This document shows positions 33,675 to 53,139 of a DNA stretch of 64,000 nucleotides, piece after piece. The stretch's first letter is position 1. Each line of letters opens with the position of its first letter. Source of the stretch: Strobilurus pachycystidiatus (taxonomy: Eukaryota > Basidiomycota > Agaricomycetes > Agaricales > Physalacriaceae). The notes beneath the pieces are model-generated. The model was given only the letters and a program-made list of their open reading frames with translations. It ran no database searches and was not told where the DNA came from. The DNA is taken from positions 1,054,001 to 1,118,000 of the forward strand of contig JAHLMK010000005.1 of assembly GCA_019915135.1 (NCBI GenBank), written 5' to 3'. Made by a program: the position numbers and the translations under genes.

Positions 33675-35735
33675 TTACATAGAATTACCGGCAGCCGTAA
33701 ATACCCACCTCGCGTCCTCCACAGCAGCTAACCAATCTTCTCTCGCCTTGGCCTGACGCTTCTTGGCAGTGATTAGATCGACGCTTCGACCCCACCACGC
33801 CAGGCAGGCAACAACAGAAAAGTAACCATTGATCCCGGGCTTACAAACTCCAGCCCAGGAACCCATACACCGCTGCTTGGCCGTCAATGCGACGTCGGTA
33901 CCTGCGACACCCCTCCAAGAAGGCTGGATGTTGCTCCACCAGGTGCAGAAATTCGAGACAAAGGGATCGTATTCTTCGACCTTGACAAAGGTATAATCCG
34001 GTGCGCGCCGGGACTTGATCCATTGGCCGACTTCAGCAGGGCGGCCCTTCGAGGGTAGAGCGGCGCGGTCGTTGCGAAAAGCATCCCTGGCCTCCATGAC
34101 CGTCCACGCAAAGATGAGAGACATCCAAGCATCGTCCTTCAAGCTATCTCCGGCGTCTCCGTCAAAGAGCAAGTACTCGCGGGCCTCACGGAACCACTGG
34201 GGCCATCCCTCCTTCTCAAGAAGGTGCAGGTCGATTGGAGGAGCTTCTCCACCATCCTCCACAAGATCATCGTCGTTCTCCTCCCTCGGCTCAGCAACAA
34301 CGGACCTCTTCTTGCTCTTGCTCTTGCTTTTGCTCTCGCTCTCGCTATCAGAGGAGTTGCCGGCTGTTGGGGAGGGAATCGAACGACGAGGGGGAGGCGC
34401 AGAGATCTCGTCAGGGATCACAGGCTGGGGAACCTGATCGGAAGTAGAGACCGTGGCAGCACGCGTGTTGGTGGCTTTCAGCGTTCCCAGAGCGTCTGTT
34501 GCTCGTATGGATTGAGGGCGCAACGGAGAGATTGCGACATTTCGGGGGAGAGTGCGGCGAGTCGGAGAAAAGACAGTGGCGGTGGGGCGTCGAGGGGATG
34601 TCGTCAAAGACGTGAAACTTGGTACGGCCACGGGCACGTTGGTTGGGTGTCGAGGAGACGTCGTCAAAGACGTGAAGCTCGGTACGGCCACGGGCGTGTT
34701 AGCAACAATCGGGCGGCACATATCGTATCCATCGTTCAGTCCTCCTACAGTCCATGGAGCGACATCACTGCCGAGGCAGAAGAGTCAGGGTACGTGTCGC
34801 CAGAGAAGCCCGGCCCCAGCAGTTGTGGATCAATGTTGCCCGAGTCGATATCTGGCTCATCAAAGGCGATTAGCCCCGACTCGACGTCTAGGGGGGGATG
34901 GAGGAGGGAGGGACAACGTTCGAGGCGGAGGAGGAAGAGACATTTGGCTTGGAGCTCGACGTGGCAAAAGATTCTCTAATCATCTCCAAGGCGCGGTCGG
35001 CGTCGGGAATCGTCGCTGGCAACTGGCGACGTGTCTTCGCGCGACTACCCCCATCTCCGGCAAACGCCAACCCACAAGCAGCTCCCGCAGCGGCAGTCTC
35101 AGCAGCTGACTTCTTCCCTTTCTTTTTGGGCCGTTCGTCGCCATCTCCAACAACAGCTCCGTTGCGCTTCTTTGTCTGACGCGTCTCCGCCTCGGCCTGT
35201 CCCTGTGTGGAGGCGATCTCCACGTCGCCGAAGAGAATGGGAGTGTTGGCGTGGGCAGAGTGGTTGTCGACAAGCCAAGCTGGGCCGTCTGGGGTCACGA
35301 CGAGTCGACGCATCCGCATGCCGGGCGGTTGGTCTTTCAGCTCCTCGGCAGCCTCCTCTAAGTCCTGCAAAGACGGCAATGCTCGGGATTGTTCAATTTC
35401 TGCATCTGCTCGAATGGTCAGCCAAGCTTTCTTGCCACCAGAGAAAACATGAAGAACGTACTCGAGTTTTTCCAACACCATGTGGAGAAAGCGTTTTGAC
35501 CCACAAAGGGTAGAGTGCGTTATCGTCGTCGAAGAGCACTGGGACAGGGCTCTTGCTCTTGCCAAAGTGCATACTGATGAAATACTGAGTAAATTCTCAA
35601 CGCAAGACAAAGATAAGACGACTCACGTCATAACATTTGGGCGTCCTCCATCTCGTGGCTCGTTTCCCCCGACGGCGACGCTGATGTACATCCCGGACAT
35701 TGTGGATAGGGCTTCGCATATGGGATGCAGCACGG
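33675..35735 (-). pseudogene. Gene A-prime, 3' half (split by retrotransposon)
   Basis: The minus-strand continuation of the gene starts at 53139. Exon sequence next to the LTR reads VLHPICEALSTMSGMYIS and GGNEPRDGGRPNVMT, parallel to LLDGLSTLLGGIIS and GPEPRKGGQINVIS in gene A. It is followed by a GTGAGT intron and SMHFGKSKSPVPVLFDDDN. Further exons hold an acidic/basic linker (PKKKGKKSAAE), a doubled 19-20 residue VAVPSFTSLTTSPR unit, a Ser/Glu/Lys tract and the C-terminal Trp-rich domain (WWSNIQPSWRG, GINGYFSVVACLAWW). The stretch at 34720-34900 does not read through in one frame: a run of seven C and a stop remain unless extra introns exist. I regard it as broken by the insertion at least. 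Confidence 0.75.
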
Positions 35736-37403
35736 TGATACGCAGGGTACTATTCCAGTACTAGAAACGGGGAATTTTGCGATTCCTGAACAGCCCAAAG
35801 ACCTTAGGAACCTCCAGTCAAGTACTTAGGATAGAGCACGCAGGAGTTACTGCCTTGACGCGGGCAAGCCTCCAGGACAAGGTCCAGGCGCCTTAACAAG
35901 TCCTTTAGGACAGGCGCGATCGAAACCTTCGATCACCTTCATCCGAATATCCTTATCCGCGCGTTGGATCCCTTTCAAAATCCCGTACCTTTGCGTGTAC
36001 CTTGTACTACAGACGATGTGCTATAACCATTCGCACCCAAGGAGGGTCCAAGGTCTCCAGGCGGTTCAGTTCGAGCGACCCAAGACCTGCGCACCTCAAC
36101 CCAAAGACCCGGAAGGTCCCGAAATAGTTCAAGGACGTCACAACCCTTTTGGGGAAACAATCTTCGGAGCTGTCAAGGACTCCGAACCGACGCCTTCCGC
36201 TATGCCGATCGATCATGATCCACGATCAAGGACCACCCCGAAAGCAGGGTGTATTACCACTTTAAGAAAGCACTCCCCTGTAGTGTCTGCGCTCGAAAGG
36301 ACGTTCTTAACGATCTCCATCCAACCTATCCACAAGAAAGCAGGTGTCCGTAGGACCTTGCAACATAAAGATACCTAAGGATCAAAGTCCTTATCGGACC
36401 TTGATCTCCTGGGCACAAGGATTGTACCATACCGCCAAGGTGGCGTATATGGCTAAAGGACCAAGCGGCCTGTCCGCAGTTGTTTCGACCAGGGATAGCC
36501 AATAAGAATCCAGCACTTGTATGACTCGAAAGTCCGATGTATCCGATCCTAGAATAGATGCTTACTCAGTAGGAACCCACCAGTAGTATAAAAGGGCCCA
36601 AAGGACCCATATTTCGGTAGCTTAGAGCCCCCTCCAGTAGCCGCTAGTCAGACGCAGCCATTGTAGTGAATCTATCTCGAGTTTCGACTCATTTCTGCAA
36701 AGTACACAAAGACCCCAAAGACCTTTCCAAGATTTAAAGACATCAGGTGTTGCCAAACTCCTTGAAAGACTCGAAAGAACCTTATTCCGACGTACCAAGT
36801 CAAGTACCAACGAATCTACTTGGTGTTAGAACCTTGTATTCGCAAGAAGGCCGGTTTGCAAGTGGTTCTGCCCTGCACTCACGCTCTTTCGTGAAGTACT
36901 TCCCTTTGAGGAATAAGTCGAGTTTGAACGAGTGTTGTCAACGTCTGAGACACCTTTCGGAACCTTTGGTCCCGGTGCAAGACACTAGAAGTTTGGTTTA
37001 AGTGCAAGAAGGAGTCCTTATCGTTAGCAGTCCAGTGGCGTAAAACCTGCGGTAGCGGCCTGACGATTCCAAGACAAAGTCCTTGTACACCAGAGCACTT
37101 GATAGGTAGAAGCTACATTGCCTCGCGCTGTTTAAGGTCTTCATACGTCAAGAGGTTCGGCCTACGACTTCAAGGTTTTCTTGTGTCATTTCGATCAGAA
37201 TCCCTACACCCCCAAAAACAACTCGTAGTTTAACTACAGCGATTCGGAATACATCTCTATTTCTCCATTACCCAAAAGCACCTTGTTCTCTCGAACCTTT
37301 GTGCACCCCAGCTCCCTTACAAGGAGTACTAGTTGTGATAAGGATTGATAGTGTGGTTAGACGATAGCTTCTTTTCAGAGGTCTATTCCGAACTTGCACA
37401 TCA
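35736..37403 (+). repeat. 5' LTR
   Basis: It is 1668 bp and TG...CA-ended. It contains a TATAAAAG box at 36587-36594 that probably drives element transcription, followed by a transcribed leader. The ORFs seen within it recur identically in the 3' LTR and are not genes. Confidence 0.95.
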
Positions 37404-37408
37404 TATTT

Positions 37409-37426
37409 TGGAGCCCACCGCGAGGG
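37409..37426 (+). other. Primer-binding site
   Basis: TGGAGCCCACCGCGAGGG starts five nucleotides after the 5' LTR. It would pair with a tRNA 3' end reading ...GGTGGGCTCCA. A lysine tRNA is the best guess from the acceptor sequence (GTGGGCT plus CCA), but I cannot verify it without the host tRNA set. Confidence 0.7.
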
Positions 37427-37866: not shown

Positions 37867-39339
37867 GTGACACCTTTCGGAAGTCCTTTGACTGACCTTG
37901 AAGACCCCGAAAGTCCAGAACCTATTACCCCCTTCATTGACTTTAACCCGTCTACCCAAAACACGATACCAGTTCCAGTAATGGCAGTACGAGCAATTGT
38001 ACCTTCCGAGGAACTTAGCGCTGAAGCTAGAGGCGAGATCCAAGGCAAGAAGATCCCGATACCATTCTCAAGGGATGCCCCAAAGTTCAAGGGACACTCG
38101 GGAGACGATGTGAGGGAATTCTTCACGATGTGCAACTGGATCTTTGACCAGACAGGAATCACCGAACAAGGTACTAAGTTGGAAGTAGCGGCGCTATACG
38201 CCGGCCACGAACAACGCCTAAGGTGGCACAAAAACCCAGACTACCTGAAAGGTGTCTGGGCGGACTTCCAAGAATCAGTTCTTTCCTCATACTCAAAGGG
38301 AAAGAACGATCCTACGTACGTCCCGGCCGACCTAAAGGATGCCTTGGACCCGTACCTGGCTAGGCCCGTAGCCAACAAGCAGAAATGGGAAAGCTTTCAG
38401 CGCGAAGTGCTCCATATCATGGGACATCTTATCACGTCGGGAGAACTTACCAATAAGGGTGCTATAGAAGATATCAAGTCCTCTATCACAGAGGGAGTTT
38501 GGCATAATGTCCTTGGGGACCTCAGGCGCGATGCGAAAGCTAATGCAACAGCCGGGACAACCCCCACCTATGACTTCACGTTGTCAGAGGTCGAGGCAGC
38601 GATCTCCAACTACTTCTTGACCGATAAATGGATGAGCAAGAGTGCAAAGGATAGTCCTTATAACAGAGAACTTATTCCCGCCTCTACCACCCGAATCAAG
38701 ACAGAGGAGTTGGATGAATACCTGAATAGGGTAGCTAGCCTTCAGGACATTATCCAGAAAGGAGAAAAGGAACGCGAAGAGGCTCGCAAGGCTGATCAGA
38801 AGATGATGGCAGAACTTCTCCATACCTTACAGCGTGGAGGTCCGCAAGGACTCCGCACCCAAGGTTTTGTACAAGAAGCCTCGCCGATTTATCTACAAAC
38901 ACCTGCTCAAGGTGTCTCAGTCCCGACCAACTTACCGAATGGACTCTACAAAGCTCCTCCGGGCGCGTTCCCAGGAAACAAGTTTGTAGTTAACGATGGA
39001 AGGTGTTACTTCTGTCGTGAACTAGGGCATATTGTAGCGAATTGTCCTACAAAGGAAATGTGCGAAAGCAATGGTCATATCTACAAGCCTGGTGGTACCA
39101 ACATATATCATGTAACGAATGGAACTACTAGTCAACCTATTCAAAGGGTTAGTCCCAAGCAGCCTCTCAGCCCTTGGGAACAAGTCCAGAAGTTTCAACA
39201 AGAAAATGCACCTAAGGTATCGGCGTTCCAATCTCAAGAAGATGAGTTTGCACCTGAGGTCGCGATGTATGTTCAAACCCCAACCCAAGAAGAAGAGTTT
39301 GCCCCCGACGCCTATCAGGGTTTCGGCAGGGCTCGATGA
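37867..39339 (+). CDS. gag: Retrotransposon Gag
   Basis: The open frame runs from at least 37867 (a GTG) to the TGA at 39337-39339. The same frame is open upstream to about 37475 with a Ser/Pro/Arg-rich segment, and I find no clear ATG before one at 37981, so the start is uncertain. The capsid-like region (FSRDAPKFKGHSGDDVREFF, then W..FQ.SVLSSYSKGKNDP) is followed by a zinc knuckle CYFCRELGHIVANC (CX2CX4HX4C). Gag should assemble particles and bind the element RNA. Near its 3' end the heptamer GGGTTTC (39318-39324) lies in the phase for -1 slippage into pro. Confidence 0.9.
   Translation: MTPFGSPLTDLEDPESPEPITPFIDFNPSTQNTIPVPVMAVRAIVPSEELSAEARGEIQGKKIPIPFSRDAPKFKGHSGDDVREFFTMCNWIFDQTGITEQGTKLEVAALYAGHEQRLRWHKNPDYLKGVWADFQESVLSSYSKGKNDPTYVPADLKDALDPYLARPVANKQKWESFQREVLHIMGHLITSGELTNKGAIEDIKSSITEGVWHNVLGDLRRDAKANATAGTTPTYDFTLSEVEAAISNYFLTDKWMSKSAKDSPYNRELIPASTTRIKTEELDEYLNRVASLQDIIQKGEKEREEARKADQKMMAELLHTLQRGGPQGLRTQGFVQEASPIYLQTPAQGVSVPTNLPNGLYKAPPGAFPGNKFVVNDGRCYFCRELGHIVANCPTKEMCESNGHIYKPGGTNIYHVTNGTTSQPIQRVSPKQPLSPWEQVQKFQQENAPKVSAFQSQEDEFAPEVAMYVQTPTQEEEFAPDAYQGFGRAR
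39318..39324 (+). promoter_or_regulatory. -1 frameshift heptamer, gag to pro
   Basis: In gag phase the codons are CAG GGT TTC, so G GGT TTC fits the X XXY YYZ slippery consensus. A -1 slip gives GGG TTT, and the new frame is open through the ATG at 39336 and the whole pro ORF. Gag stops 13 nt after the heptamer. The alternative is reinitiation at the ATGA overlap (39336-39339). Confidence 0.7.
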
Positions 39340-40508
39340 AGGAAGGAGTGCAGTTAGCACATACTCCTCCGGAGAGCCAGTTCACTGTAGAAACTCGTCA
39401 GACTCGTCAGAGCGCAAAAGCACCTAGTGCTCCTGTGGATTCAACTCCACAAAAGAAGGTAACCTCATGGCCTAAGGACCGGGTGTCCGTGGTCATTCCA
39501 AAAGCAGCGCCGCCTAAGGTATCATTCTCCAAGCCGGAAGTCACTCAAGAAGTAGAACCTGTTGACCAGGACCTTCTTGACGAAGTCCTAGCGATGGAAG
39601 AACCAGACCCGGTGCCGCAACCAAAAGCAGATTCAACTCTGCCAGAAAAGAACCAACCAAAGGTTCAACCTAAGGAACCTAAGGTCAAGAGTTTCCAACG
39701 CCGTAGCCTGGCAGAAGAACTCTTGCACAAGAATCCCAGTTGGCGTGAAGCCTGGAAGTTCTTGTTACCCGAAGCGCTACTCGCTACCAACCCCCCTTGG
39801 CAGCAGAGCATTTCGGACTTCATCAGGAAACGCAACACGCCTGTGGCTGTATTCAAGACGGAAGAAGTGGCCGATACGGTCCAAGATCACTTCCAACCCG
39901 AGCTGTATTCAGTCAACTTTCATGAGCAAGGTGATTTACCTATTGGTGGAATTGTAGTCCACGATGCGGTAGAACAGTTTGTAAACCTTTCCGGAGGTCA
40001 CTATACTGGTCCCTTTCAAATGATAAGTGGCAATATGGCGCCGGAAAATGCAGATCTACGAACCTTTTGGCCCTTGATCAACAAGAATGGTAAAAAGGAG
40101 AGTTTAGTGGATGGTGGGTCGCAGATCGCCTCCATTTCGCTCAAGGCAGCATTGGAACTAGGAATAGCCTATGATCCCACTTTCACCATTACTATGGAAA
40201 GTGCGGACAAGGGACGAACCAGTACCTTGGGATTGGCTCGTAACATACCTTTTGACTTTGAAGGAATTGTCTATTACCTTCAGTTGCATGTGTTGCAGGA
40301 TCCCGCCTATGAGGTCCTACTGGGACGACCTTTCGAGATCGTTTCAAACCTGGTCATCACCAACCTTCCCAACGGGAACGCAATCGGAACCCTTACGGAT
40401 AACACCAATGGGAAGAAGTTATCGCTACCTTCTTACCGTCGAGGACAGATCCCAAGACATATGATTCCAGGAGGACAAACGGGTTTTCACGGGAACCTAA
40501 GGACGTAG
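39336..40508 (+). CDS. pro: Retrotransposon aspartic protease ORF (pro)
   Basis: The 390-residue ORF overlaps the gag stop by ATGA and lies in the -1 frame. The first half is a Pro/Lys-rich linker. The C-terminal half has the retropepsin pattern: KKESLVDGGSQIASISLKAA with the catalytic Asp in DGG rather than the usual DSG/DTG, a hydrophobic LGLARNIPF strand, and VLQDPAYEVLLGRPFEIVSN (the usual ...D..ILG.P motif). It should cleave the Gag-Pro-Pol precursors. It ends at TAG 40506-40508, 19 nt after a second slippery heptamer. Confidence 0.88.
   Translation: MKEGVQLAHTPPESQFTVETRQTRQSAKAPSAPVDSTPQKKVTSWPKDRVSVVIPKAAPPKVSFSKPEVTQEVEPVDQDLLDEVLAMEEPDPVPQPKADSTLPEKNQPKVQPKEPKVKSFQRRSLAEELLHKNPSWREAWKFLLPEALLATNPPWQQSISDFIRKRNTPVAVFKTEEVADTVQDHFQPELYSVNFHEQGDLPIGGIVVHDAVEQFVNLSGGHYTGPFQMISGNMAPENADLRTFWPLINKNGKKESLVDGGSQIASISLKAALELGIAYDPTFTITMESADKGRTSTLGLARNIPFDFEGIVYYLQLHVLQDPAYEVLLGRPFEIVSNLVITNLPNGNAIGTLTDNTNGKKLSLPSYRRGQIPRHMIPGGQTGFHGNLRT
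40481..40487 (+). promoter_or_regulatory. -1 frameshift heptamer, pro to pol
   Basis: GGGTTTT in pro phase reads G GGT TTT, another X XXY YYZ site. The -1 frame from here (GGG TTT TCA CGG and onward) has no stop until the pol terminator at 44374. The pol ORF has no convincing start codon of its own, which supports frameshift expression. Confidence 0.75.
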
Positions 40509-40528
40509 GAAATTCCTATGAAGAAGCC

Positions 40529-43500
40529 GTGTTGATCCTTGAAAGGTCACCAGAAGGAAACATCGAAGTAAAGCAAAGTTGGATACCTGGTGATAACAGG
40601 GAGACCTTCGGGGAAGGGGACTTAACGTCCTTATACATGAAGAAGTCACCCAATAGGGTTCATCAGGCAGCCAAAAGGCTAAGGAAGCAACACGCCTTCA
40701 TGCATGCATCGATGCACCAAGCATCGACACATATGACAGTCCCAGAACATATGGTGACACCTACGGGACTATTAAAGGTCCCAGCCAAGACTCAAGGCTT
40801 TCGCAAGGTATTCAATATTAACCAGATTGCGGGGGACCAAGAAGAATTTAAGTCCTACGCCACGGCGACTTTGAATCTCTTTTACGGGGTACCAAAGGAG
40901 TTAGAACAAGTCTTTACGGGCTTGTCGGTAACCTTACCAAAGGATTACATGGCGGAGGCACAACAGGAGTTCCTAAGGTTGGAAAGTCAGATCCCTAAGA
41001 GGGGTGTATTCGTAGGAAAGAAGTACAAACCAGTAGCCTTGAAAACCAAAGCTCACCTTGGAACCTTACCGGAAGAATTCAGGATCAAGCGCCACATTCA
41101 TGGAGACCCACTAGCTGGGATGCCGGAATTAGTACCTGATCCACCACCCTTCGTACCCACAGGTAGGTATACTGCCGAAAGGAGGGAACAGATACAAGCC
41201 GACCACGTCGGGGACTTCCTGACGGATGCAGAAAGACGGATTATAGACTCCATCTGCTGTAAACAGAACGAAGGCTTTGCCTGGGAAGAATCTGAGAAAG
41301 GACACTTCAAACCAGAGTTCTTTCCACCAGTGGATATCCCGGTAATACCGCACACACCTTGGGTGTTGAGGAATATACCAATTCCACCAGGAATCTATGA
41401 CGAAGTCTGTAAGATTATCAAGCACAAACTAGACTCGGGCGTGTATGAGCCTTCGAACTCCTCATACCGCTCCAGGTGGTTCTGTGTTGTTAAGAAGGAT
41501 GGAAAGAAACTTCGCCTAGTGCACAGTCTGGAACCACTCAATGCGGTGACCATTGCGCACTCAGGGTTACCTCCAGCCACGGAGGAACTAGCGGAGTCCT
41601 TTGCAGGACGAAGTTGTGGAGGGACCTTGGATCTGTTCGTTGGATATGACGAACGGCTCCTTGCCACCGCGTCTCGCGATATGACAACCTTCTCGACACC
41701 TTACGGAGCGTTAAGGTTAAAGACCTTACCAATGGGCTGGACTAATTCAGTACCTATCTTTCATGACGATGTTACAACGATTCTCAAGGATGAAATACCA
41801 GCCTTTACCAGACCTTATATCGACGATGTGCCCGTCCGCGGACCCGCTACGCGATATGAACAAGCTGATGGCACCTACGAAACGCTTCCAGGTCATCCTG
41901 AAGTAAGGCGTTTCGTTTGGGAACACCTTGTGAACATGAACAGGATCATACAGCGAATGAAACATGCCGGAGGGACCTTTTCTGGTCACAAGGCTATCAT
42001 TTGTGCAGAAGAGATTGTGGTAGTGGGACATGTCTGTACCTACGAAGGTAGAAAGCCAGCTGAAGATCGCGTTAAGGTGATCTCGGATTGGCCCCCTTGT
42101 AAAGCGCTCACGGAAGTCCGTTCGTTCTTAGGAACAGCTGGAATCTTCAGAGCATTTGTAAAGGACTACTCTAAGAAGGCGTTACCTTTGACCAGGTTAA
42201 CCAAAGACATTACCAAGTTCAGATGGACAGACGAGGAGCAGGAAAGTATGGATACCTTAAAGGAAGCCATACGAACTTGTCCGATGCTGAAACCACTGAA
42301 TTATGAATGGTCCACGCCAATCACACTGTCGGTAGACACCTCTTACCAGGCAGTAGGTTTCTATCTGTCCCAGGTAGATCCCAAGGACCCTAAGAAACGA
42401 TACTTTGCGAAGTTTATGTCTCTGACCTTGAACGAAAGAGAGGCAAGGTACTCGCAAGCCAAGCGAGAACTATTCGGGCTCTTCAGAGCTCTGTCCGCGT
42501 GCAAGTACTACCTTCTAGGGTGTAGAAAACTAGAAATTGAAGTAGATGCAAAATACATCAAAGGCATGTTATCAAACGTGGACTCCTTAGCGAACGCAAA
42601 CCTGCAAAGGTGGGCTGAGGAGATCTTGATGTACCACTTCACGCTTGTACACGTACCAGGAAAGGTCCATGGCCCGGATGGCTTGAGTCGCCGTCCAGCT
42701 TCAGAGCATGATGTAGTAGTACCCAGACCTCATATAAACATAGAGGATGACGAAGTCAATACCTTTGAGTACCAGGAGCCCAAGGGTCTGCCTATAGAAA
42801 AGCAACCTTTGGACTTTGACACTTTCCGGAATGACATCGACAGTAGGGGAGGCTACTTCCAAGAAATAGTGCGGAGTCCTTTACCAGACCATATAAAGGT
42901 TTCTAAAGCGGTAAGGACTGCGGGACTAGTCAACGTTAAAGATATCGAAGGATGGATGCATATCACGGAGTTCCCAGAGCTCAATAAGAGCAAAAGGGAG
43001 CGGTTGTGGGAGACCTATCTGCCCAAACTTCAACCTTACTTACAATCGGAAGATGTACTTGAGGACGAAGACTTGGAGAAATGGAGCAAAGACTTCTTTG
43101 TCCAGCATGAAAAGTTATACCGAACACATTTGGACTCCCACCCCCGTCGAGTGCTACTTCCAAATGAACGAATCCCGGTTTGTAAAGCTCTACACGATCG
43201 GGCAGGACATAAAGGACAATATTCCGTGTTACAACTCATCATGAAGCGATTCTGGTGGCCAGGTATGGAGGTCGACATACGATGGTACGTAAGGACCTGT
43301 GTACTATGTCAGAAACGCCAGAAACGTAACATAAAGGTTGCACCAACGATTACTTCAACTCCAGGTATCTACGAAAGGGCTTATATAGACACCTTCCGGA
43401 TGCCTAAGGCAGGAGAAGAATCCACTCGAAAGAAACGGCCTTCAAAATGGGCCGGCTTCAACGCTGTGACCGTAGCAAGGTGTGGATTAACAAGTTGGCC

Positions 43501-44374
43501 AGAGGCAAGGGCTCTCAAGGAAGAGACCGCCGAGTCACTGGGAGAATGGATCTTCGAGGACATTCTGTGCAGGTGGGGTTGTATCAAGGAAATTGTAACC
43601 GACAATGGGCCAGCAATCAAGAAGGCTTTAGTACATATTGAACAGAAATATGGTATTACAGGTATCTTGATCACGGCGTACAATAAGCAAGCCAACGGAA
43701 AGGTTGAACGAGGACACTGGGATATCCGTCAATCTCTCTTCAAGGTATGCAGGGGTAAACCCGAGCAATGGCCAGAGTTCCTACATGAGGTCCTTTGGGC
43801 AGAGCGCATTACCATAAAGAGAAGTCTAGGTACTTCAGCGTTCCAGGCAGTAACCGGTTGTGAACCAATCATGCCAATGGACCTGGAGGAATTGACTTGG
43901 CTGGTCGAAGCACCAGGTCGACTGGTCTCCCATTCGGACCTTATTGCCTTCCGAGCTAGGCAGCTCATCAAGCACAAGGAAGATACTGCCAAGTTAAGGT
44001 CGAAGGTCCTTCTAAATAAACAGAAGGCCGCGGCGAAGTTCCTAGAGGACTTCCAGAACAGTATCCCTCGCTACAAATTCAAAACTGGTGAACTAGTGCT
44101 AGTAAGGAACACTAGGATCGAATCAGAAATGAATGCGAAGTTCAAGGAAAGGTTTATGGGACCTTACGCGGTAGTAACAAGGACCTCGGCAGGAAACTAT
44201 GTGGTCTGCGAGTTGGACGGGACAATCTACAAAGACAAGATAGCTCAGTTCCGTGTAATACCTTTTGTATCGCGACGAGATCCTATAGACCTTGGAAAAC
44301 AGTTCTTTGATCGACTACACTTCATAAGTAAGCCGATCACAAAGACCTTAGATGTCCTTGCGAGAACTACGTGA
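40529..44374 (+). CDS. pol: Retrotransposon Pol: RT, RNase H, integrase
   Basis: The ORF is open from the slippery site at 40481. RT: RSRWFCVVKKDGKKLRLVHS, GGTLDLFVGYDERLL, LKTLPMGWTNSVPIF and a catalytic box FTRPYIDDV (YIDD in place of YVDD/YMDD). RNase H: LSVDTSYQAVGFYLSQ, AKRELFGLFRAL, LEIEVDAKYI. Integrase: zinc-binding HDRAGH then CVLCQKR, the D-D-E core AYIDTFRM, IVTDNGPA and NGKVERGHWD, and a C-terminal GPYAVVTR..GNYVVCELDG beta domain. I see no chromodomain. At 1281 residues from the first listed codon it is of ordinary Gypsy length. No lesion is seen. Confidence 0.95.
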   Translation: MLILERSPEGNIEVKQSWIPGDNRETFGEGDLTSLYMKKSPNRVHQAAKRLRKQHAFMHASMHQASTHMTVPEHMVTPTGLLKVPAKTQGFRKVFNINQIAGDQEEFKSYATATLNLFYGVPKELEQVFTGLSVTLPKDYMAEAQQEFLRLESQIPKRGVFVGKKYKPVALKTKAHLGTLPEEFRIKRHIHGDPLAGMPELVPDPPPFVPTGRYTAERREQIQADHVGDFLTDAERRIIDSICCKQNEGFAWEESEKGHFKPEFFPPVDIPVIPHTPWVLRNIPIPPGIYDEVCKIIKHKLDSGVYEPSNSSYRSRWFCVVKKDGKKLRLVHSLEPLNAVTIAHSGLPPATEELAESFAGRSCGGTLDLFVGYDERLLATASRDMTTFSTPYGALRLKTLPMGWTNSVPIFHDDVTTILKDEIPAFTRPYIDDVPVRGPATRYEQADGTYETLPGHPEVRRFVWEHLVNMNRIIQRMKHAGGTFSGHKAIICAEEIVVVGHVCTYEGRKPAEDRVKVISDWPPCKALTEVRSFLGTAGIFRAFVKDYSKKALPLTRLTKDITKFRWTDEEQESMDTLKEAIRTCPMLKPLNYEWSTPITLSVDTSYQAVGFYLSQVDPKDPKKRYFAKFMSLTLNEREARYSQAKRELFGLFRALSACKYYLLGCRKLEIEVDAKYIKGMLSNVDSLANANLQRWAEEILMYHFTLVHVPGKVHGPDGLSRRPASEHDVVVPRPHINIEDDEVNTFEYQEPKGLPIEKQPLDFDTFRNDIDSRGGYFQEIVRSPLPDHIKVSKAVRTAGLVNVKDIEGWMHITEFPELNKSKRERLWETYLPKLQPYLQSEDVLEDEDLEKWSKDFFVQHEKLYRTHLDSHPRRVLLPNERIPVCKALHDRAGHKGQYSVLQLIMKRFWWPGMEVDIRWYVRTCVLCQKRQKRNIKVAPTITSTPGIYERAYIDTFRMPKAGEESTRKKRPSKWAGFNAVTVARCGLTSWPEARALKEETAESLGEWIFEDILCRWGCIKEIVTDNGPAIKKALVHIEQKYGITGILITAYNKQANGKVERGHWDIRQSLFKVCRGKPEQWPEFLHEVLWAERITIKRSLGTSAFQAVTGCEPIMPMDLEELTWLVEAPGRLVSHSDLIAFRARQLIKHKEDTAKLRSKVLLNKQKAAAKFLEDFQNSIPRYKFKTGELVLVRNTRIESEMNAKFKERFMGPYAVVTRTSAGNYVVCELDGTIYKDKIAQFRVIPFVSRRDPIDLGKQFFDRLHFISKPITKTLDVLARTT

Positions 44375-45023
44375 CCTTGAGCACCCAGGACTGGACTACA
44401 GCTTCAAAAGGAAGCCAAGGTACCATACCAGATGACGGGGACGTCATCAGAAAAGTAAAGAGAGAATAGAGGGACATCGGTCCATTTATTCAAAGACTAT
44501 AAAAATTTTATTTAAGACTTATTCTGTGCCCAGCTGGCTACAAAGGTAGCTAAGGTAGCATTGAACTAAGGACAGAATAAGGAAGCAAGACAAGGCACGA
44601 GGCATCAGGGAAGTGGCGGGGTGCGAATAAAGAAAAAGCTTAAAGGTGATGGAACCGTAAGGTGATGTGGTAAGCGCAAAAAGGAAGCACCACGCACCAA
44701 ACCACCACCACGACAATGTCAACAAGTTCGCACCAAGACACCGAGCGCAAGGAGGGCGTGAAGGTAAGCAACCAACACAATCGCCGGCAGGGCGGCATGC
44801 GAACTTACTTACCAAAAGGAGCAGTCGCCGCCGCCGCCGCCAACGTCGCCACAAGAACATCAGGAGCCTCCCGCAGCTCAGGAGGAAGAGGAAAAAGAGG
44901 CACTAGCGCAGGAACAGGTGAGTGACGGGCAACGACGCGTAAAGAGACGAGAAAACTCACCACGACCACTCTTTGCGCTAGCCCCCTCCCATCGCCTGTG
45001 AAGCCAGGCCGGACCACGTCAAG
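44375..45023. other. Non-coding spacer behind pol
   Basis: The first half is AT-rich. From 44700 it becomes CGCC/CACC-rich. An ORF starting MSTSSHQDTERKEG (44716) could be a first exon spliced onto the 45024 gene, with a donor GTAAGC at 44764. I cannot confirm this, and no terminator or promoter element stands out. Confidence 0.3.
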
Positions 45024-46832
45024 ATGACCCGCCCCCTGTTTAACTACAGCGGCTTCCTCACGAACATGACCGCACCGCCAGAGCTGGACGCAGGGATCAG
45101 TCTGCGCCTGGCCGAGTCACTGTGCGCCAGCCCAGCGTCAACCCGCGACATTCTGCAGGCGGCCGGTTACAAGGGGTACCTCCGTAACGGCGTCTTTTGG
45201 TTGACTTTCCAGGACGCACTCGAATCGACCCCAGCGGGCAAGGCCACTCCGCTGGAACGCGTCGAGATGGCGCTGAGCGCCGCGTGGCACGACGCCACGA
45301 CCTACAGGAGGCAGGTCCGCCCCGTCTACGACATCACCTTCCTAGATAACGACCGCATCGCCCCCGAGCTCGTGCTCCGGCTTTCAGAAGACGACGCCCA
45401 GCGTTGTTTTCTGGAGCTGGATCACCTCTGGAACTTTGTGCGCGACCAGGACCGGGCTAATCTATTCTGGGGCGCGCTGCTCGTGGAAATGCGAAGACAG
45501 CGCGACGAGACCGCCCTCCAGGGGTCGTTCTACAAAACGATGGATAATCTGATCGAAAGCGCGATAACCGAGCTTGGAATCGCCAACTACGAGCGCGACG
45601 GGACGCCCAGCCTCGACAGCAAGGTCGAGGACGAGGATACGCCGCGCCCCACGATGCAGGAGATTGCGAAGGAGGAGTCACCTAGTCCTCGCGACTCGCG
45701 AACGCTGTCCCCGGCGCCCTCCTCGCACCATGAACCCACGCACAAGCCCGAGGCGGAACCCCCCAAGCGCAAGCCGTATGTCGCGGCGAGCAAAGGAGGT
45801 CCCAAATCGACCACCAAGTACGTCCACCGCACCCTCGCGCCGCTAACATTTGCTGACGCTCCGCCAAGGCCGAAGGCCGTCGCAATAAAAGTGGAACCCA
45901 AGGACAAGGACGTCGCCCCCGCCAGGAAAACCTCGGTCGCGCGCGCCACCACTGGTGGAAGCCAGAAGCGCAAGTTCGTCGAGGAGGAACCGGAGGAGGA
46001 GGACGAGCTGGAAGAAGACGCCGAAGCCAGCGCCGAGGAGGAGGACGACTTCGTCCTCGACGTGCGCGACAAGACCAACCCGCGCATCCCCCTCCACCGC
46101 GACGACGGTGTCTGCGTCCCCTGCATCAAGCAGCGGTTGACGTGCACCTACTTCCGGATTCACGCCACGCCCGCCGAGAAGAACAACAGTTTCACGTGCG
46201 ACCAATGCAAGGAAAAGGACGGACAGCACGGTCCGTGCTGGGTCGCGTGGAGGCGAAGTCAGGTCCCCGCGCCATGGAAGGAGGTCGCGCTGAAGGTCCG
46301 CGCCCAGTTGCAGGCCGTGGCGAGGAACAAGCCCGACTCCCAGATCAGGGCCCGCCGTCACCAGGACTATTCCGACGCCGCCCAAGCGATCGCGAAGGAA
46401 GCGGACCAGCGGTGGAAGGAGGAGAAGCAGAGGAAGAAGGACGAGCCCCCGGCGAAGCGCCGTCGCGTCGAGAGCACGGCGGGAAAGAAGGGCAAGGCGA
46501 AGAAGGAGGAGACGTCGGACGAAGAGGGCACCGGCGACTCCGACATCGAGGAGGTCCACGCGCCCCGCACCCGCCTCCAAAAAGGAAAGGTTAGCGCAGC
46601 CCCGCCTCCCGCCTCGACCAAGTCCTCGAAGGGGGCCACCACTTCGATCAGCGCGGTCCAACGACAGGACAAGGGCGAAGGAGCCAGCCGTCAAGGTGCG
46701 ACGTCCTCCGCCTCCACCAGCCGCGTCGACCCCGCCGAGGACGTAGACAAGGTCCTGGCGTTGTACTTCTCCCTGAGTGAGAAGAGTCGCAAGAAGTTTA
46801 GGAAGATCGCAGAGATTGCGGTGGGACGTTAG
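45024..46832 (+). CDS. Extra sense ORF, Zn2Cys6-like nuclear protein (602 aa)
   Basis: The intronless ORF from ATG 45024 is distinctly more GC-rich than the pol gene before it, with C/G-ending codons, suggesting a different origin. The N-terminal 180 residues are a helical globular domain (LRLAESLCASPASTRDILQA, WHDATTYRRQVRPVYDI). A Pro/Ser linker and an acidic EEPEEEDELEEDAEA tract follow, then a cysteine cluster CVPCIKQRLTC, 19 residues, CDQCKEKDGQHGPC. This CX2CX6C-CX2CX8C layout resembles fungal Zn2Cys6 clusters with a long central loop. A basic PAKRRRVES signal comes next. DNA binding in the nucleus is inference. The stop at 46832 lies 390 bp before the stop of the antisense gene, so the two genes converge. 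Confidence 0.7.
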   Translation: MTRPLFNYSGFLTNMTAPPELDAGISLRLAESLCASPASTRDILQAAGYKGYLRNGVFWLTFQDALESTPAGKATPLERVEMALSAAWHDATTYRRQVRPVYDITFLDNDRIAPELVLRLSEDDAQRCFLELDHLWNFVRDQDRANLFWGALLVEMRRQRDETALQGSFYKTMDNLIESAITELGIANYERDGTPSLDSKVEDEDTPRPTMQEIAKEESPSPRDSRTLSPAPSSHHEPTHKPEAEPPKRKPYVAASKGGPKSTTKYVHRTLAPLTFADAPPRPKAVAIKVEPKDKDVAPARKTSVARATTGGSQKRKFVEEEPEEEDELEEDAEASAEEEDDFVLDVRDKTNPRIPLHRDDGVCVPCIKQRLTCTYFRIHATPAEKNNSFTCDQCKEKDGQHGPCWVAWRRSQVPAPWKEVALKVRAQLQAVARNKPDSQIRARRHQDYSDAAQAIAKEADQRWKEEKQRKKDEPPAKRRRVESTAGKKGKAKKEETSDEEGTGDSDIEEVHAPRTRLQKGKVSAAPPPASTKSSKGATTSISAVQRQDKGEGASRQGATSSASTSRVDPAEDVDKVLALYFSLSEKSRKKFRKIAEIAVGR

Positions 46833-47221
46833 TAGCGTCCCGCCGCAATTCCCTTTTATATATACACAAACTTTAGTCACAGTGCCACAATGGACACTTT
46901 CGTATACGCATCGCCCGCCCCGCCCCGTTGTACTTTATATGAAAATTTACAACTTCTTGTAACGAAAGAACCGTGTGAAAACACTAAGGAAACAAGAACA
47001 AGGACCTTAGTTGAAACCTTAAGTCAAGGGGAGAATCCAGGACTCTCCTTGATATACCAGAGGTCGCAAAGGTCGGAAGCTAAGGACTTTGTTAAGTCGA
47101 AAGGGCCCACAAGGAACTGCGTTGCAAGTAAAGTAATACAGGCAGAAGCAATGTGACTAAGGACAAGCTGTAAGGAATAAAAAGAGAGGCGACCTTTAGG
47201 TCAAAAGAAGTCATCTAAGGA

Positions 47222-48359
47222 CTAAGCAAAACGACTCCAATCAGGAGGGACCGCAAGGTTCGCAAGGCGCGCATAGAAAGGTCCTGCGTGGCTAAGGTCG
47301 ATTGCTAACGTACTAGCAGCAAGGAGTTCGTAGTCTACTTCGGTGGCCTCCGACCAGTCGATGAGCCAGAGTAGTGGATCGATGATAGGCAGCGACTGGT
47401 TGGGGCGCTGGAAACACAGAAGTTACAAACGGACCTCAAACTACGAAGTTGTTCACGGACCCGATTGGCGGGAAGGTCAATCTCGGGGATCAACCGACGC
47501 ATATTGGGAGGTCTATCCAACGCGTAGGCGTCGTCCCAGCCGTAAAGAGCAGAGTTCTGACGTTCGAACCCTGGCCACCACTTCATAACCGTGACAAGGT
47601 CGGCAGGAAGGTCCCCATACTGAACAGGAAGGACCTTCAGGTCGTCAGGCCCGATGTAAAGCAAGCGAAGGAGTGTGGAAAAGCCGGAGTAACCACCAAA
47701 GTGGGCCTCGACCTACGTCTAAGGTCAGTGCCGACCACAAGACATGAAAGGAAAAGACCAGGTTTAACTCACCATGAAAGGTCCAATGAACTCTTGGGTA
47801 AACCAAGGGTGACTCGCAAGGATGTCCATGTTAAGGTCCCCCAGGTGGAAGCGGGCGCCTTCACCGTCAAAGGTATTGCCTTCGGCGAACCAAGCCTTGC
47901 AAAGTTCGACGGCGGTGTAGTACAAAGGAAAGAAGTGCGCCTTGAAACCTTGAGGAATGGCCCCGTTCTGGAAGTGAAAAGCGGGTTCCCAGATATAACG
48001 AAAGCGGACCTAAGGACCATCCGATTAAACGAGAAAAGTGTCGAGACAAGTTCAACTAGACTGACCAGAACGTGCAAAAGATAGCGCAAGGTCGGGACGT
48101 CTAGAGGTTCGTCACGACCAAAGGCATGAACCGGAGGCTTGAGCTGGGGAAGGAGGCGAGTGTCGTCTTCCGTAGCTAAGGTCCCATCCGGATGACGGAC
48201 TACCGCAACGAAGTAGCGTGTATAGTTGTACATCTCCATGGCGCAGCTCAGCGCAAGGTCCGCTGTGACTAAGTCATGTTGAAAGGAGGTCAAAGGCGAG
48301 CGAAGTCGAACGCCTTGAATGCGCGTATCTGCAAAGGAAGGCAGGACGGGTGCGGGCAT
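47222..48359 (-). CDS. Antisense extra gene 2, unknown (spliced)
   Basis: ATG at 48359 begins MPAPVLPSFADTRIQGVRL. I infer four exons. The first runs to about RYLLH, then VRFRYIWEPAFHFQNGAIPQ... to GPFM (donor GTGAGT), then VEAHFGGYSGFSTLLRLLYI... to REQLRSL, and finally SLPIIDPLLWLIDWSEATEV to the stop at 47224-47222. All introns are GT-AG on the minus strand. The predicted protein is soluble and aromatic-rich with no motif that I recognise. Because its introns are on the strand opposite to the element's transcript, they would survive retrotransposition. It ends 390 bp from the convergent sense ORF. Confidence 0.65.
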
Positions 48360-48733
48360 GATCAAAGATGAGATTCCTGTCTCCAGGACCGACTTAAAAG
48401 AGGACCCTCATCAGTCGAAGGTCCGAACGAACCGATAAAATGCAAAGTTTAGGCGCCACCTATCTAAAGGTAGGTACGATCGGCGATAGCCGATCGAACT
48501 AAGTTCGATCTTAGACCTACCAAGGTGCGGTCAGGAAAAAACTTTAAGGGTTCAAATCAAAAGGAGTTGGATTATGCACCAACTGGGCCTAGAGTAGTCT
48601 AAGGAAATAAAGTGACTACCGCTCCTACAAGTGGGAAAGGAATCCGAAACCAGTATGAAGACGAAGTAGTGAAAACTATGAGTAGTACTGGTTAAGACTT
48701 GGCGAAAGTTAAGCTAAAGTAGGACCTTGTAGT

Positions 48734-50271
48734 CTACTGAGCCTGGTCAATCGCGTCTAAGGCCGAGATATAAAGGTCGCGAGTCGACTGCAGGACTTGG
48801 ATACGGCCCCGAATCTCGTTGAAAGTCGAGATAATGTCGTGCCGGTACTGGCGCTCCAAAATGACCAAGTTGGGCGAGATGTTGGGGTCGTCAAGACCAG
48901 ACAACCTTGACATACGCTTGTGGACTTGGGCCAAGGCAGCAGACAGACCATTGATGTACTGGTTCGCTAAGGGGAAGTAACCAGGAATCAACAAGGCAAA
49001 CCAAGGAGCGAGGAAGAAGCACCTTACCGCCTTCAAGTTGTTTAAGAACGACAGGTTCGACCCCAAAGGTCGAAGGCCGGGCCGCCTTTACAACACGGCG
49101 AGCGTTCTCATCGTTAAGCTTACGCTTAGGAGGAGCTTCTTGACCATTGATCGCGCCCAAGGTTTGAAGGGCTTTCTGGTAAACACGGGCGTTAATGTCC
49201 ATACCGGGAAGAGCTGCGAAAGGAAGGTAACGGACGGAAGATGACTATTAAAGAAGTCATAAGGAAGTCCGGGACAAACATAGGATTCAAAGGAACGTAC
49301 CGCTTCGGCTTCCTTTGACAAGGAATTGGCGACTTGGAGCTGGCGAAAGGCTTCAATAAAGGAAGATGAGACTGGCAAAGAAATTGAGCGCACAGTATCA
49401 CCGACGACGACAACGGAGTCCTCACCGTCGCTCTCGCCAGCTGCCACATCGTCAGCCCAATTAAAGTACTCCGGACGAAAGAAGCGCGCACAAGAGTCGG
49501 GATCCATCGCGACGTCGCCGTCTCCCGTCTCGGCTCGTTTCTCCATGGCCTCGGTAACGACCTCGGGCGATTTCTTCGTCTTCTAAGCGAAGACATCCAG
49601 AGGTTACAGTAGGAAACCAACGAGTACCGAACGGACATACCTTGCCTTTCTCAAGCTTGTCCGGCTTGAAATAAGCGTTATCCGGATGCATAGGGTGACC
49701 CGGGGACAGGCCAGGGAAGTGGGCGTTAGACGCCTTCTTGCAGCTGCTCACCAAAGGTTGGAGGATATGAGCGATGTGGTGCGTTGGCGTCTGAGGGTGA
49801 ATCCCCAGCAGGTGTACCAGCATCCCTACATAGAGGCGGAGGTTGAAAAAGAACACCGCCATGTCCGTCGACACCTTGGAACCATTCAGAAAGGTGCGAA
49901 GGTCATGGGCGACGGCCTAAAAAGAAAACAAGGACAGGATGAAGTCAGGATCAGGAAAAAGAACACAGCGAAGGAGTACACACAAGGACTCTCTCCATGA
50001 TCTTGTCAACATAGCCGGTGATCTCCAGTGCCACGTCGGGATTCGAACACGCCTTCTTGAGGTCCAGACGATGGACCTTGGGAATGATGAGCGTAAGATG
50101 CATGCCGAGGTACATAAGGAAGTCGGGTGTGTTGGCTGGAGGGTCGTAGTCGAGCGCATAAGCGACGAGACCGGCGCCAAGGTCGCGCGTAGTGATCAGG
50201 TCCTTCGCGGACGGAACGTGCGGCGTTGTGGGAAGCAGCTTTGCGATGGGAGTCCAAGTTTTGGGAGCCAT
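48734..50271 (-). CDS. Antisense extra gene 1, unknown (spliced)
   Basis: ATG at 50271 begins MAPKTWTPIAKLLPTTPHVP. Exons follow with AVAHDLRTFLNGSKVSTDMA, KTKKSPEVVTEAMEKRAETG, KALQTLGAINGQEAPPKRKL and ANQYINGLSAALAQVHKRMS to the TAG at 48736-48734. Introns are short and GT-AG, although the first donor is ambiguous (GTCCTT or GTGTGT, both phase 0). The protein has an N-terminal helical domain, an acidic middle (WADDVAAGESDGEDSVVVVG), a basic PPKRKLNDENARRV patch and a C-terminal helical, coiled-coil-like end. No family is recognised. It starts only 198 bp inside the 3' LTR, so its promoter may lie in or next to the LTR. Confidence 0.65.
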
Positions 50272-50454
50272 GATAGAATAAAGGCAGGAATGAAAGCTCT
50301 GAGGACAAGTCCCAGGACCTTTTATAACGGAACAAGGTTAGGCAAAAGAGGGTCCATCGGGCGATAGAAACCAAAAGGAGACTTCGTCACGGCGGCCTGG
50401 TACCCAGGATAAAGGTTCTGAACCACCAAGGACTATGTCGCGGATGACATTTCA

Positions 50455-50469
50455 TAAGTCAAGGGGAGA
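50455..50469 (+). other. Polypurine tract before the 3' LTR
   Basis: The purine-rich AAGGGGAGA abuts the TGATACG start of the 3' LTR at 50470. This is where plus-strand DNA synthesis would be primed. Confidence 0.75.
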
Positions 50470-52122
50470 TGATACGCAGGGTACTATTCCAGTACTAGAA
50501 ACGGGGAATTTTGCGATTCCTGAACAGCCCAAAGACCTTAGGAACCTCCAGTCAAGTACTTAGGATAGAGCACGCAGGAGTTACTGCCTTGACGCGGGCA
50601 AGCCTCCAGGACAAGGTCCAGGCGCCTTAACAAGTCCTTTAGGACAGGCGCGATCGAAACCTTCGATCACCTTCATCCGAATATCCTTATCTTTCAAAAT
50701 CCCGTACCTTTGCGTGTACCTTGTACTACAGACGATGTGCTATAACCATTCGCACCCAAGGAGGGTCCAAGGTCTCCAGGCGGTTCAGTTCGAGCGACCC
50801 AAGACCTGCGCACCTCAACCCAAAGACCCGGAAGGTCCCGAAATAGTTCAAGGACGTCACAACCCTTTTGGGGAAACAATCTTCGGAGCTGTCAAGGACT
50901 CCGAACCGACGCCTTCCGCTATGCCGATCGATCATGATCCACGATCAAGGACCACCCCGAAAGCAGGGTGTATTACCACTTTAAGAAAGCACTCCCCTGT
51001 AGTGTCTGCGCTCGAAAGGACGTTCTTAACGATCTCCATCCAACCTATCCACAAGAAAGCAGGTGTCCGTAGGACCTTGCAACATAAAGATACCTAAGGA
51101 TCGAAGTCCTTATCGGACCTTGATCTCCTGGGCACAAGGATTGTACCATACCGCCAAGGTGGCGTATATGGCTAAAGGACCAAGCGGCCTGTCCGCAGTT
51201 GTTTCGACCAGGGATAGCCAATAAGAATCCAGCACTTGTATGACTCGAAAGTCCGATGTATCCGATCCTAGAATAGATGCTTACTCAGTAGGAACCCACC
51301 AGTAGTATAAAAGGGCCCAAAGGACCCATATTTCGGTAGCTTAGAGCCCCCTCCAGTAGCCGCTAGTCAGACGCAGCCATTGTAGTGAATCTATCTCGAG
51401 TTTCGACTCATTTCTGCAAAGTACACAAAGACCCCAAAGACCTTTCCAAGATTTAAAGACATCAGGTGTTGCCAAACTCCTTGAAAGACTCGAAAGAACC
51501 TTATTCCGACGTACCAAGTCAAGTACCAACGAATCTACTTGGTGTTAGAACCTTGTATTCGCAAGAAGGCCGGTTTGCAAGTGGTTCTGCCCTGCACTCA
51601 CGCTCTTTCGTGAAGTACTTCCCTTTGAGGAATAAGTCGAGTTTGAACGAGTGTTGTCAACGTCTGAGACACCTTTCGGAACCTTTGGTCCCGGTGCAAG
51701 ACACTAGAAGTTTGGTTTAAGTGCAAGAAGGAGTCCTTATCGTTAGCAGTCCAGTGGCGTAAAACCTGCGGTAGCGGCCTGACGATTCCAAGACAAAGTC
51801 CTTGTACACCAGAGCACTTGATAGGTAGAAGCTACATTGCCTCGCGCTGTTTAAGGTCTTCATACGTCAAGAGGTTCGGCCTACGACTTCAAGGTTTTCT
51901 TGTGTCATTTCGATCAGAATCCCTACACCCCCAAAAACAACTCGTAGTTTAACTACAGCGATTCGGAATACATCTCTATTTCTCCATTACCCAAAAGCAC
52001 CTTGTTCTCTCGAACCTTTGTGCACCCCAGCTCCCTTACAAGGAGTACTAGTTGTGATAAGGATTGATAGTGTGGTTAGACGATAGCTTCTTTTCAGAGG
52101 TCTATTCCGAACTTGCACATCA
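50470..52122 (+). repeat. 3' LTR
   Basis: It is 1653 bp, identical by eye to the 5' LTR except for one A/G difference and a 15-bp segment absent here near 50690. It is followed by ACGG, the second copy of the target duplication. Confidence 0.95.
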
Positions 52123-53139
52123 ACGGACATCATGCGATCAATGACCCTAACAGCAAGAAGTCAGCAAAATGATGCTCGGGAAGAAAGATAACAATGATAC
52201 GCACTCTTGCGCCTCGCTCGGGGGCAGCAGCTCCGTAACCTTCTGGAAAAGCTTGGTGCAAGCGTCCTTTGCCAACTGAACGTTCGCCACCGCCCGAGCG
52301 TTGAAGCCAGCTCGGACCTCCTCGGGTTGGAGAGCAAACTTCTCCGCCCAGTACTTCTGGCGAAACCCATTCCTTTCCCTCTGCGGCAGCTTCGCCGTCT
52401 CCGCCTTGCAAGCCTCGAGCATTGCCGGCTGAGTCGCTGCCCAGAGTTGAAAGCCGTGCGATCCGCGAATGGCGCCCCCATTGTCGCCAAGGACACGCAC
52501 AAGCAGAGCAGCGATCGGATCCTTCTGTGGTTTCAAACTCTTTTTGACGGCGGTCATTTTTGGCACTGCATCCGCGAGGCCTTTGAGCAGATTGAAAACA
52601 CCCTAGAAGACAGGGTCAACTACTTGCGCATCGACAGAAAACAGATATTCATCACTCACTCGTCGTGTGGCCTGTATAATCAAGGCATAGGACGCCTTCT
52701 CTTTTTCACACACGACGTCGCGGGTGTAGCAGTAAGGCACTTCGCCGGGCAATGTGGCGCGGAATGGACGGCGCCACTTGTAACGCTTCAAAAGCTTGTT
52801 GGCGGCGCCGTCGCCGATGTCCTTGCAATTACCGTGGTCGTGGATTTTCCGGGCCCCGATGAAGCGAGCCAAAGCGTGTGACTTGACAAATTCAAGAGGT
52901 TCGCCCTTTAGCCAGTTTTTTAAGTGTTGTTTGGCGGCATACTGCGCTAATTTGTGAAGGAAGTTGTCGGTCAGCGGTGGTGGAACGTAGGGTCTGGAGA
53001 CAAATCATTTTATGTCATTGTTTGTTTTTCATCACCTTCCCATCAAGACTTACTCGGTGCTTTCCACTCCCTCCATCCTCTCCGCATCTGGCACTGGTGC
53101 AGCACCGCTCGCTGGGTTGCTGTTCACTGGGTCGCTCAT
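52123..53139 (-). pseudogene. Gene A-prime, 5' half (split by retrotransposon)
   Basis: ATG at 53139 begins MSDPVNSNPASGAAPVPDAE. The exons seen are 53139-53054, one beginning EPYVPPPLTDNFLHKLAQYA, then (after a GTGAGT...TTCTAG intron) GVFNLLKGLADAVPKMTAVK to LLPPSEAQE, and VIDRMMSV ending at the LTR. From PKMTAVKKSLK onward it parallels gene A exon 3 (ISKLTKTQIAKDPVANFLSR, QLWGTANFDSLKAEFD). The first exons differ from gene A, so the N-terminal region is not shared. The coding sequence stops at the 4-bp duplication and continues on the other side of the retrotransposon at 35735. The 297 bp to the plus-strand gene at 53437 is probably a shared divergent promoter region. Confidence 0.75.

Follow-up and report, generated by a model that had tools for sequence, protein, structure and literature searches.

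The DNA analyzed here, a 64,000-nucleotide stretch of Strobilurus pachycystidiatus (contig JAHLMK010000005.1, positions 1,054,001 to 1,118,000; the window), carries a long terminal repeat (LTR) retrotransposon that spans 35736-52122 by LTR-to-LTR alignment. It has the features of the Ty3/Gypsy type: an LTR pair with TG...CA ends, a short target duplication, a primer binding site (PBS) and a polypurine tract (PPT), and the order reverse transcriptase (RT), RNase H and integrase in pol. The pol open reading frame (ORF) stops at 44374, and the 6.1 kb from there to the 3' LTR hold a sense gene, here called C, followed by antisense gene B and then antisense gene A. An earlier sequence-only reading had described this interval as a 602-codon sense ORF with two spliced antisense genes, and we recovered both: the ORF lies at 45024-46832, and the predicted models of the antisense genes are open. 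We have hardly any doubt about the anatomy of the element and the residence of the three genes in it. It is also very probable that variants of C have been exchanged between near-identical element backbones.

The two LTRs (35736-37403 and 50470-52122) align over their full length with 1 substitution and one 15-nt gap, a near identity that had been noted before and that indicates that the element moved recently. Their termini are TG...CA, and the 4-bp target repeat ACGG stands on both flanks. The 14-nt complement of the likely PBS occurs 136 times in the genome searched, a 51.8-Mb assembly of 61 contigs, compared with once for a reversed control. Within pol, Pfam identified RNase H followed by the integrase zinc domain; it gave no RT match there, and the RT was recognized by its YIDD motif only. 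The protease frame has a weak Pfam match to gag-asp_proteas (E 0.015, under the cut-off), and no D-S/T-G motif was found in that frame. The gag stop and the protease start overlap as ATGA at 39336-39339, and about 100 nt (40403-40508) are shared by the open frames of protease and pol, so the three frames must be linked in translation.

Gene C is predicted to be a three-exon sense gene of 665 aa, with the 602-codon ORF inside its last exon. Both donors and both acceptors are kept in 10 aligned rows of family 1, the window's element included; in this alignment the single-base gaps fall in introns, and the sole exon gap is 9 nt. A last-exon frame of 612-617 aa, as expected if intron 2 is present, is kept in 32 of the 33 places that match C residues 1-602, the remaining one having 595 aa. 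The sequence-only reading had argued that an intron-bearing gene can persist in such an element only in the antisense orientation; this argument fails, since both introns of C are in the sense orientation. That is a useful correction, though third ORFs spliced on the sense strand have been known before. For A, B and C alike, splicing is predicted solely from conservation. Six cysteines of C are invariant in 11 sequences and are spaced CX2CX6CX17CX2CX9C in family 1 and CX2CX6CX15CX2CX9C in family 2. A protein search returned only two relatives of C, P0001 (69%) and P0002 (44%), both from source 'lgn'. Pfam gave sub-threshold matches only, Exostosin_GT47 for C (E 0.061) and TetR_C_14 for P0002 (E 0.018), and the single match from a PDB sequence search (E 0.054) was set aside as not credible. 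We also rejected an Env-like product on hydropathy only: no segment of C looks membrane-like, the maximum over 19 residues being 0.67.

On the minus strand, gene A is modeled as 5 exons from 50271 to 48734 (431 aa) and gene B as 4 exons from 48359 to 47222 (322 aa), and each of the seven introns has GT...AG ends and a length of 53-67 nt. Among 29 other copies and the window, the sites that vary at codon positions 1/2/3 number 16/8/52 in A (432 sites per position) and 31/13/53 in B (319 per position); the introns vary at 23/239 (A) and 30/168 (B) sites, and the examined coding columns of both genes contain no gaps. These codon-position counts show that A and B are protein genes under purifying selection and not chance frames. 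For neither gene did Pfam return any family, TRP28 included, at E up to 1. No protein relatives appeared at E 0.001, which is a weak negative, since the searched proteins are predictions and may miss spliced genes.

The three genes are found together across family 1. Forty candidates were scored in each of the LTR, A and C DNA searches, and the 42 family-1 C places comprise the 40 from the C search and 2 further, other C fragments being left out. Antisense A lies downstream of C in 35 of these 42 places, at 1895-1903 bp in 31 of the 35 (the others at 1096, 1097, 2065 and 2208), and it is present in 14 of the 15 C places for which both LTRs are among the LTR candidates. The sequence-only reading had suggested that the unit probably moved as a whole, and these counts agree with it; an absence of the block elsewhere, with a target repeat around it here, was not seen. 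Its word "cargo" is weak, as A and B are selected and common to two families; they look like accessory genes of the element. In a survey of pol copies, for which 12 of 113 matches (under about 800 bp) were dropped, C and B occur together in 35/54 copies of family 1, 16/18 of family 2, 0/21 of family 3 and 0/8 of the more distant class. In this survey, C3:557422 was scored as having B only, owing to a neighboring family-2 element, and C18:749271 was counted as having both, though its C is 5.1 kb off and degenerate. The latter place (G000:C18:740296-750362) combines a family-1 pol with a B relative (49%) and, at a distance of 5 kb, a degenerate C (42%), and is possibly a recombinant or nested element. 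The one copy without C and B that was read lacks 44617-49711 between exact 11-nt direct repeats, an internal deletion; about 47277-50177 is missing in the two deletion copies read, and a third copy, on C21, has C without A.

Family 2, a sister family, has the same gene order and strands as family 1. Over the stretches compared, pol is 78-84% identical between the two families, C about 31%, the A exons 49-79% and the B exons 46-55%; every exon of A and B was refound in family 2 at 46-79% identity in the two loci tested. All seven antisense intron positions of family 1 recur there. Family-2 B is open with three introns at 98, 178 and 263 aa, compared with 98, 177 and 261 aa in family 1, and its intron 3 has more than one possible donor and acceptor. 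Family-2 A (L055 and L057) has no open frame with the four family-1 introns alone; a fifth intron has to be placed in exon 3 to obtain one (412 aa, 62% identical), in both loci tested, the best-scoring length being 47 nt, so that this gene would have either one more intron or a frameshift. Open three-exon models of family-2 C were obtained in 6 of 7 rows (L061 gave none); the acceptor of intron 1 is strongly kept, and alternative sites are possible for intron 2. From these similarities, either the module is older than the split of families 1 and 2 or it passed between them early. In an unrooted tree of C, which carries a long-branch warning, the family-2 C types stand together on the same side of a branch whose support is 100/99 and whose length is 0.16, compared with 1.14-1.18 per family-2 type. 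In family 3, also a sister family, B and C were not seen. One family-3 copy that was read (L064:202-664; G000:C2:1290380-1291880) has antisense tRNA genes directly after pol, of which ARAGORN called 3 and Rfam 2 above gathering. The full 551 bases of this tRNA block occur at 18 places, 17 of them with 99-100% identity and the other with 94%, and pieces at 3 more, and it seems to be a standing part of family 3.

Against this shared architecture, sequence diversity is concentrated in and close to C. Pairwise divergence and recombination tests were confined to the 11 elements for which both halves were fetched. The mean pairwise difference is 0.172 across the 5' exons and introns of C and falls along its main exon from 0.148 (first 601 bases) to 0.100 and 0.074; the corresponding values are 0.027 for B, 0.011 for A and 0.0075 for the 3' LTR. 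The maximum differences are 15.9% in C, 2.0% in A with its upstream stretch and 1.3% in the LTR. Between the window and the copy on C19, for example, the differences amount to 14.6% (C), 0.9% (A) and 0.5% (LTR). The 11 elements include five C groups separated by 6.8% or more. Near-neighbor site incompatibility is below all 1000 permutations both in the C block and in the B-A region, a sign of recombination and of a mosaic C; the same signal was absent in the LTR, which has 10 informative sites. Of the 16 family-1 C loci, L052 and L053 (broken frames) were left out of the comparison of nonsynonymous with synonymous change (dN/dS). In 11 of the 13 compared variants, those clearly different from the window's C, dS is 0.25-0.52 and dN/dS 0.09-0.18; L040 and L041 are near-identical to it, with 8 and 9 changes, too few for their dN/dS of 0.92 and 0.61 to be read. 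High dS and low dN/dS indicate that the variants are old constrained lineages and not the product of rapid amino-acid change. Repeat-induced point mutation (RIP) or other hypermutation as the cause of the divergence is thought unlikely, given the codon pattern and a dN/dS of 0.09-0.18.

The same pattern is more pronounced in family 2. L055 and L057 are 94% and 98% identical on either side of C, and their C proteins share 37%; across all pairs of the two deep C types, full-length proteins share 37-39% of residues between flanks of 90-98% DNA identity. Within one C type, copies with differing N halves are 73-78% identical there and 97-100% in the C-terminal half, and the N-terminal part is the most variable portion of C in both families. 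In most pairs the exchange edges fall near the start of C and 17-55 nt past its stop. The C frames of L060 and L061 are short or broken, and L060 lies outside the quoted ranges.

Several non-coding signals accompany the module (Table 1). The stretch at 44431-44502 is 89-91% identical between families, compared with about 75% for pol DNA. Both PPT copies hold AAGTCAAGGGGAG in family 1 and TCAAAAGTCAAGAGGAG in family 2, and because they have changed together we suggest that the internal copy is in use, perhaps as a second plus-strand start. The palindrome ATCGG-N6-CCGAT between A and B shows only three single-copy changes in 30 copies and is found in 3 of 4 family-2 loci (L058 is without it); the core CGG-N6-CCG by itself occurs at chance level (4 versus 4.2 expected) and was discarded, which leaves only the longer palindrome of interest. 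In 16 of 30 copies the TATA-like box matches TATAAAAGGTCC exactly across 12 nt; both family-2 loci printed have the altered form TATAAAAACGCC.

Table 1. Features of the retrotransposon, in window coordinates.
Feature	Position	Strand	Basis
Target-site duplication, left (ACGG)	35732..35735	.	flank read
5' LTR, 1668 bp	35736..37403	+	LTR alignment
Likely PBS (TGG...)	37409..37425	+	sequence read
gag-like ORF, CCHC knuckle, start codon uncertain	37867..39339	+	ORF list, domain search
Protease ORF; start overlaps gag stop as ATGA	39336..40508	+	ORF list, weak protease match
pol: RT (YIDD), RNase H, integrase	40529..44374	+	ORF list, domains, motif
Non-coding stretch just after pol, holds TGACGGGGACGTCA	44431..44502	+	family comparison
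Hypervariable block: gene C and close flanks, edges approximate	44630..47200	.	alignment of copies
Gene C exon 1 (predicted)	44716..44763	+	alignment, model
Gene C exon 2 (predicted)	44819..44917	+	alignment, model
Gene C exon 3 (predicted), cluster CX2CX6CX17CX2CX9C	44982..46832	+	ORF list, model, motif
Internal PPT copy (TTAAGTCAAGGGGAGA) between C and B	47019..47034	+	sequence read
Antisense gene B exon 4 (predicted)	47222..47407	-	model + family-2 match
Antisense gene B exon 3 (predicted)	47461..47712	-	model + family-2 match
Antisense gene B exon 2 (predicted)	47773..48009	-	model + family-2 match
Antisense gene B exon 1 (predicted)	48066..48359	-	model + family-2 match
Palindrome ATCGG-N6-CCGAT between A and B	48479..48494	.	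copy alignment
Antisense gene A exon 5 (predicted)	48734..48966	-	model + family-2 match
Antisense gene A exon 4 (predicted)	49028..49244	-	model + family-2 match
Antisense gene A exon 3 (predicted)	49301..49582	-	model + family-2 match
Antisense gene A exon 2 (predicted)	49641..49916	-	model + family-2 match
Antisense gene A exon 1 (predicted)	49984..50271	-	model + family-2 match
TATA-like box TATAAAAGG, upstream of gene A	50318..50326	-	sequence read
3' PPT AAGTCAAGGGGAGA	50456..50469	+	sequence read
3' LTR, 1653 bp	50470..52122	+	LTR alignment
Target-site duplication, right (ACGG)	52123..52126	.	flank read

Elsewhere in the window, 1439-3395 holds an LTR from a family-2-like element that matches the LTR in L055-L058 at 81-85% identity, and 4665-5417 and 30119-30595 are remnants of other pol genes, 27-32% identical to the element's pol. 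Near the window end, at 60574-63610 on the minus strand, lies a host gene in which a Peptidase C54 (ATG4) domain is recognized in pieces.

The explanation that we put forward, with confidence about evenly divided, is that the window holds a recently moved Ty3/Gypsy-type copy with a standing three-gene module in which C is most likely an allele-specific regulator or self-restriction factor. C, B and A would probably be expressed from their own internal promoters. Genomic RNA would be packaged unspliced, which may explain the survival of sense introns in C. Reverse transcriptase could swap C variants between elements by template switching. C itself may be an allele-specific nucleic-acid-binding regulator or a self-restriction factor, as gag is in Ty1. 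Elements would gain from a C variant that resident copies do not recognize, and we propose that C diversity is kept while the rest is homogenized because such variants are favored. We lean slightly towards selection for C diversity. The assignment of C as an element-specific regulator or restriction factor is tentative and has in our estimate somewhat less than an even chance of being correct. A more specific version, which we consider quite unlikely, likens C to the immunity region of a temperate phage: a variant would silence elements of the same variant and ignore others, and A, B and the palindrome would be parts of the same switch. If this were true, there would be immunity groups among the retrotransposons of one genome, and a swap of C by recombination would be an escape.

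Several observations weigh against assigning such a role to C. The non-coding stretch just after C has a mean difference of 0.137, which is what one would expect from linkage alone. Distances in C are still correlated with distances in B (r 0.62), A (0.30) and the LTR (0.25), so the decoupling of C is only partial. The high dS is evidence of old C lineages and not of what maintains them. Neither C nor B accompanies 14 of the 54 family-1 pol copies, and 3 of the 54 have C but no B, so a strict need in cis is not apparent for any of the three genes. The module can probably be dispensed with in cis; it may have its effect in trans, or it may confer an advantage without being essential. Pfam gave no Zn-cluster call for C and no PF00172 match, and AlphaFold models of three C sequences had a mean pLDDT of 37.8, too poor for use. 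Nucleic-acid binding is nevertheless plausible, given the invariant cysteines and a poor model that has a helical N part and long disordered stretches. Finally, C shows no similarity to gag (blastp, E up to 1) and so is not a Ty1 p22 by descent.

Modular recombination could also be neutral, with the C blocks of diverged relatives template-switched into one successful backbone and C diversity not selected for. The C block and the B-A region both bear clear signs of recombination, non-coding sequence beside C is about as divergent as C, and the deletion junctions at short direct repeats suggest reverse-transcription jumps, all of which suit this explanation. We nevertheless find it somewhat unlikely, as it must account for five such distant C groups among only 11 elements and for the recurrence of the pattern at the same gene in family 2, which neutral exchange should not pick twice. 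A host-driven arms race, in which C antagonizes a host defense factor and its diversity follows changing host targets and not recognition between elements, would fit the concentration of variability in the N-terminal part of C in both families and the existence of copies without C. Yet even the N-terminal window, where a rise is expected, has a low dN/dS (0.18/0.85), and no host target is known; we regard this explanation as improbable. Plain gene capture would make the block recently acquired passenger DNA, and an outside origin is conceivable for A and B, for which the sequence searches returned no relatives. C and B, however, are both present in 35/54 family-1 and 16/18 family-2 pol copies, A and B are under selection, and their intron positions are common to the two families, which leaves capture with very little probability. 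A recent later insertion of the block was rejected on the presence of A downstream in 35/42 C places, the exons refound in family 2 and the pol-class counts. The restriction of diversity to one gene suggests recognition, either between elements or between element and host.

How the module compares with known systems depends on the gene considered. Fungal Zn(II)2Cys6 clusters are spaced CX2CX6CX5-12CX2CX6-8C; the spacing in C (X17 or X15, X9) is outside this range, and the likeness is one of resemblance only. The spliced sense third ORF of retroviruses is env, and C, judged by hydropathy only, is not the membrane-spanning third ORF of an env-bearing endogenous retrovirus. HBZ of HTLV-1 is spliced and, like gene A, lies antisense near the 3' LTR; unlike the case of HBZ, a TATA-like box stands between the LTR and the start codon of A. 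HBZ is described as an antisense product in PMC11963269. According to PMC7055915, canonical Ty1 of yeast gained a divergent gag by recombination, and its self-encoded control depends on the gag subfamily. Ty1 and Ty1' differ, as C variants do, in a recombined divergent segment, which there is gag and here is a gene without gag similarity; the inhibitor in Ty1-type self-restriction derives from the element's own gag, and C does not. In the crapaud LTR retrotransposon of Podospora, diverged variants are likewise confined to one segment, which there is the 5' half of the LTR and not, as here, a protein gene (PMC10787394).

The antisense genes have closer counterparts. The Boty-like Gypsy element of Botrytis cinerea, a fungal Gypsy with an antisense gene like the element described here, carries brtn (PMC7264820; PMC8365987); the likeness is by description only, and one antisense gene is named in the cited title where we find two. 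The plant Gypsy elements Retand, Grande (gene23) and RIRE2 have a long region between pol and the 3' LTR with antisense protein genes; 97% of Retand clusters encode one, and gene23 of Grande is transcribed from its own upstream promoter (PMC7264820; PMC11963269). An antisense protein gene at this position, conserved in the family, is common to these elements and ours; the TRP28 domain of the Retand antisense ORF was not found in A or B by Pfam. Neither PMC7264820 nor PMC11963269 uses the word "intron" in its main text. Barley Bagy2 has a spliced sense third ORF (PMC7264820). Our searches of open-licence full texts turned up no LTR retrotransposon described as having an accessory gene that is exchanged in this gene-restricted way, and none with spliced accessory genes on its two strands. 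Antisense accessory genes of retrotransposons are known but unexplained, and the exchanged gene C looks new. Unlike Retand, Grande and RIRE2, the Strobilurus element has two antisense genes with seven introns, spliced by all sequence signs and under selection, beside a spliced, hypervariable and very probably exchanged sense gene, so that the function of accessory genes becomes testable inside one genome.

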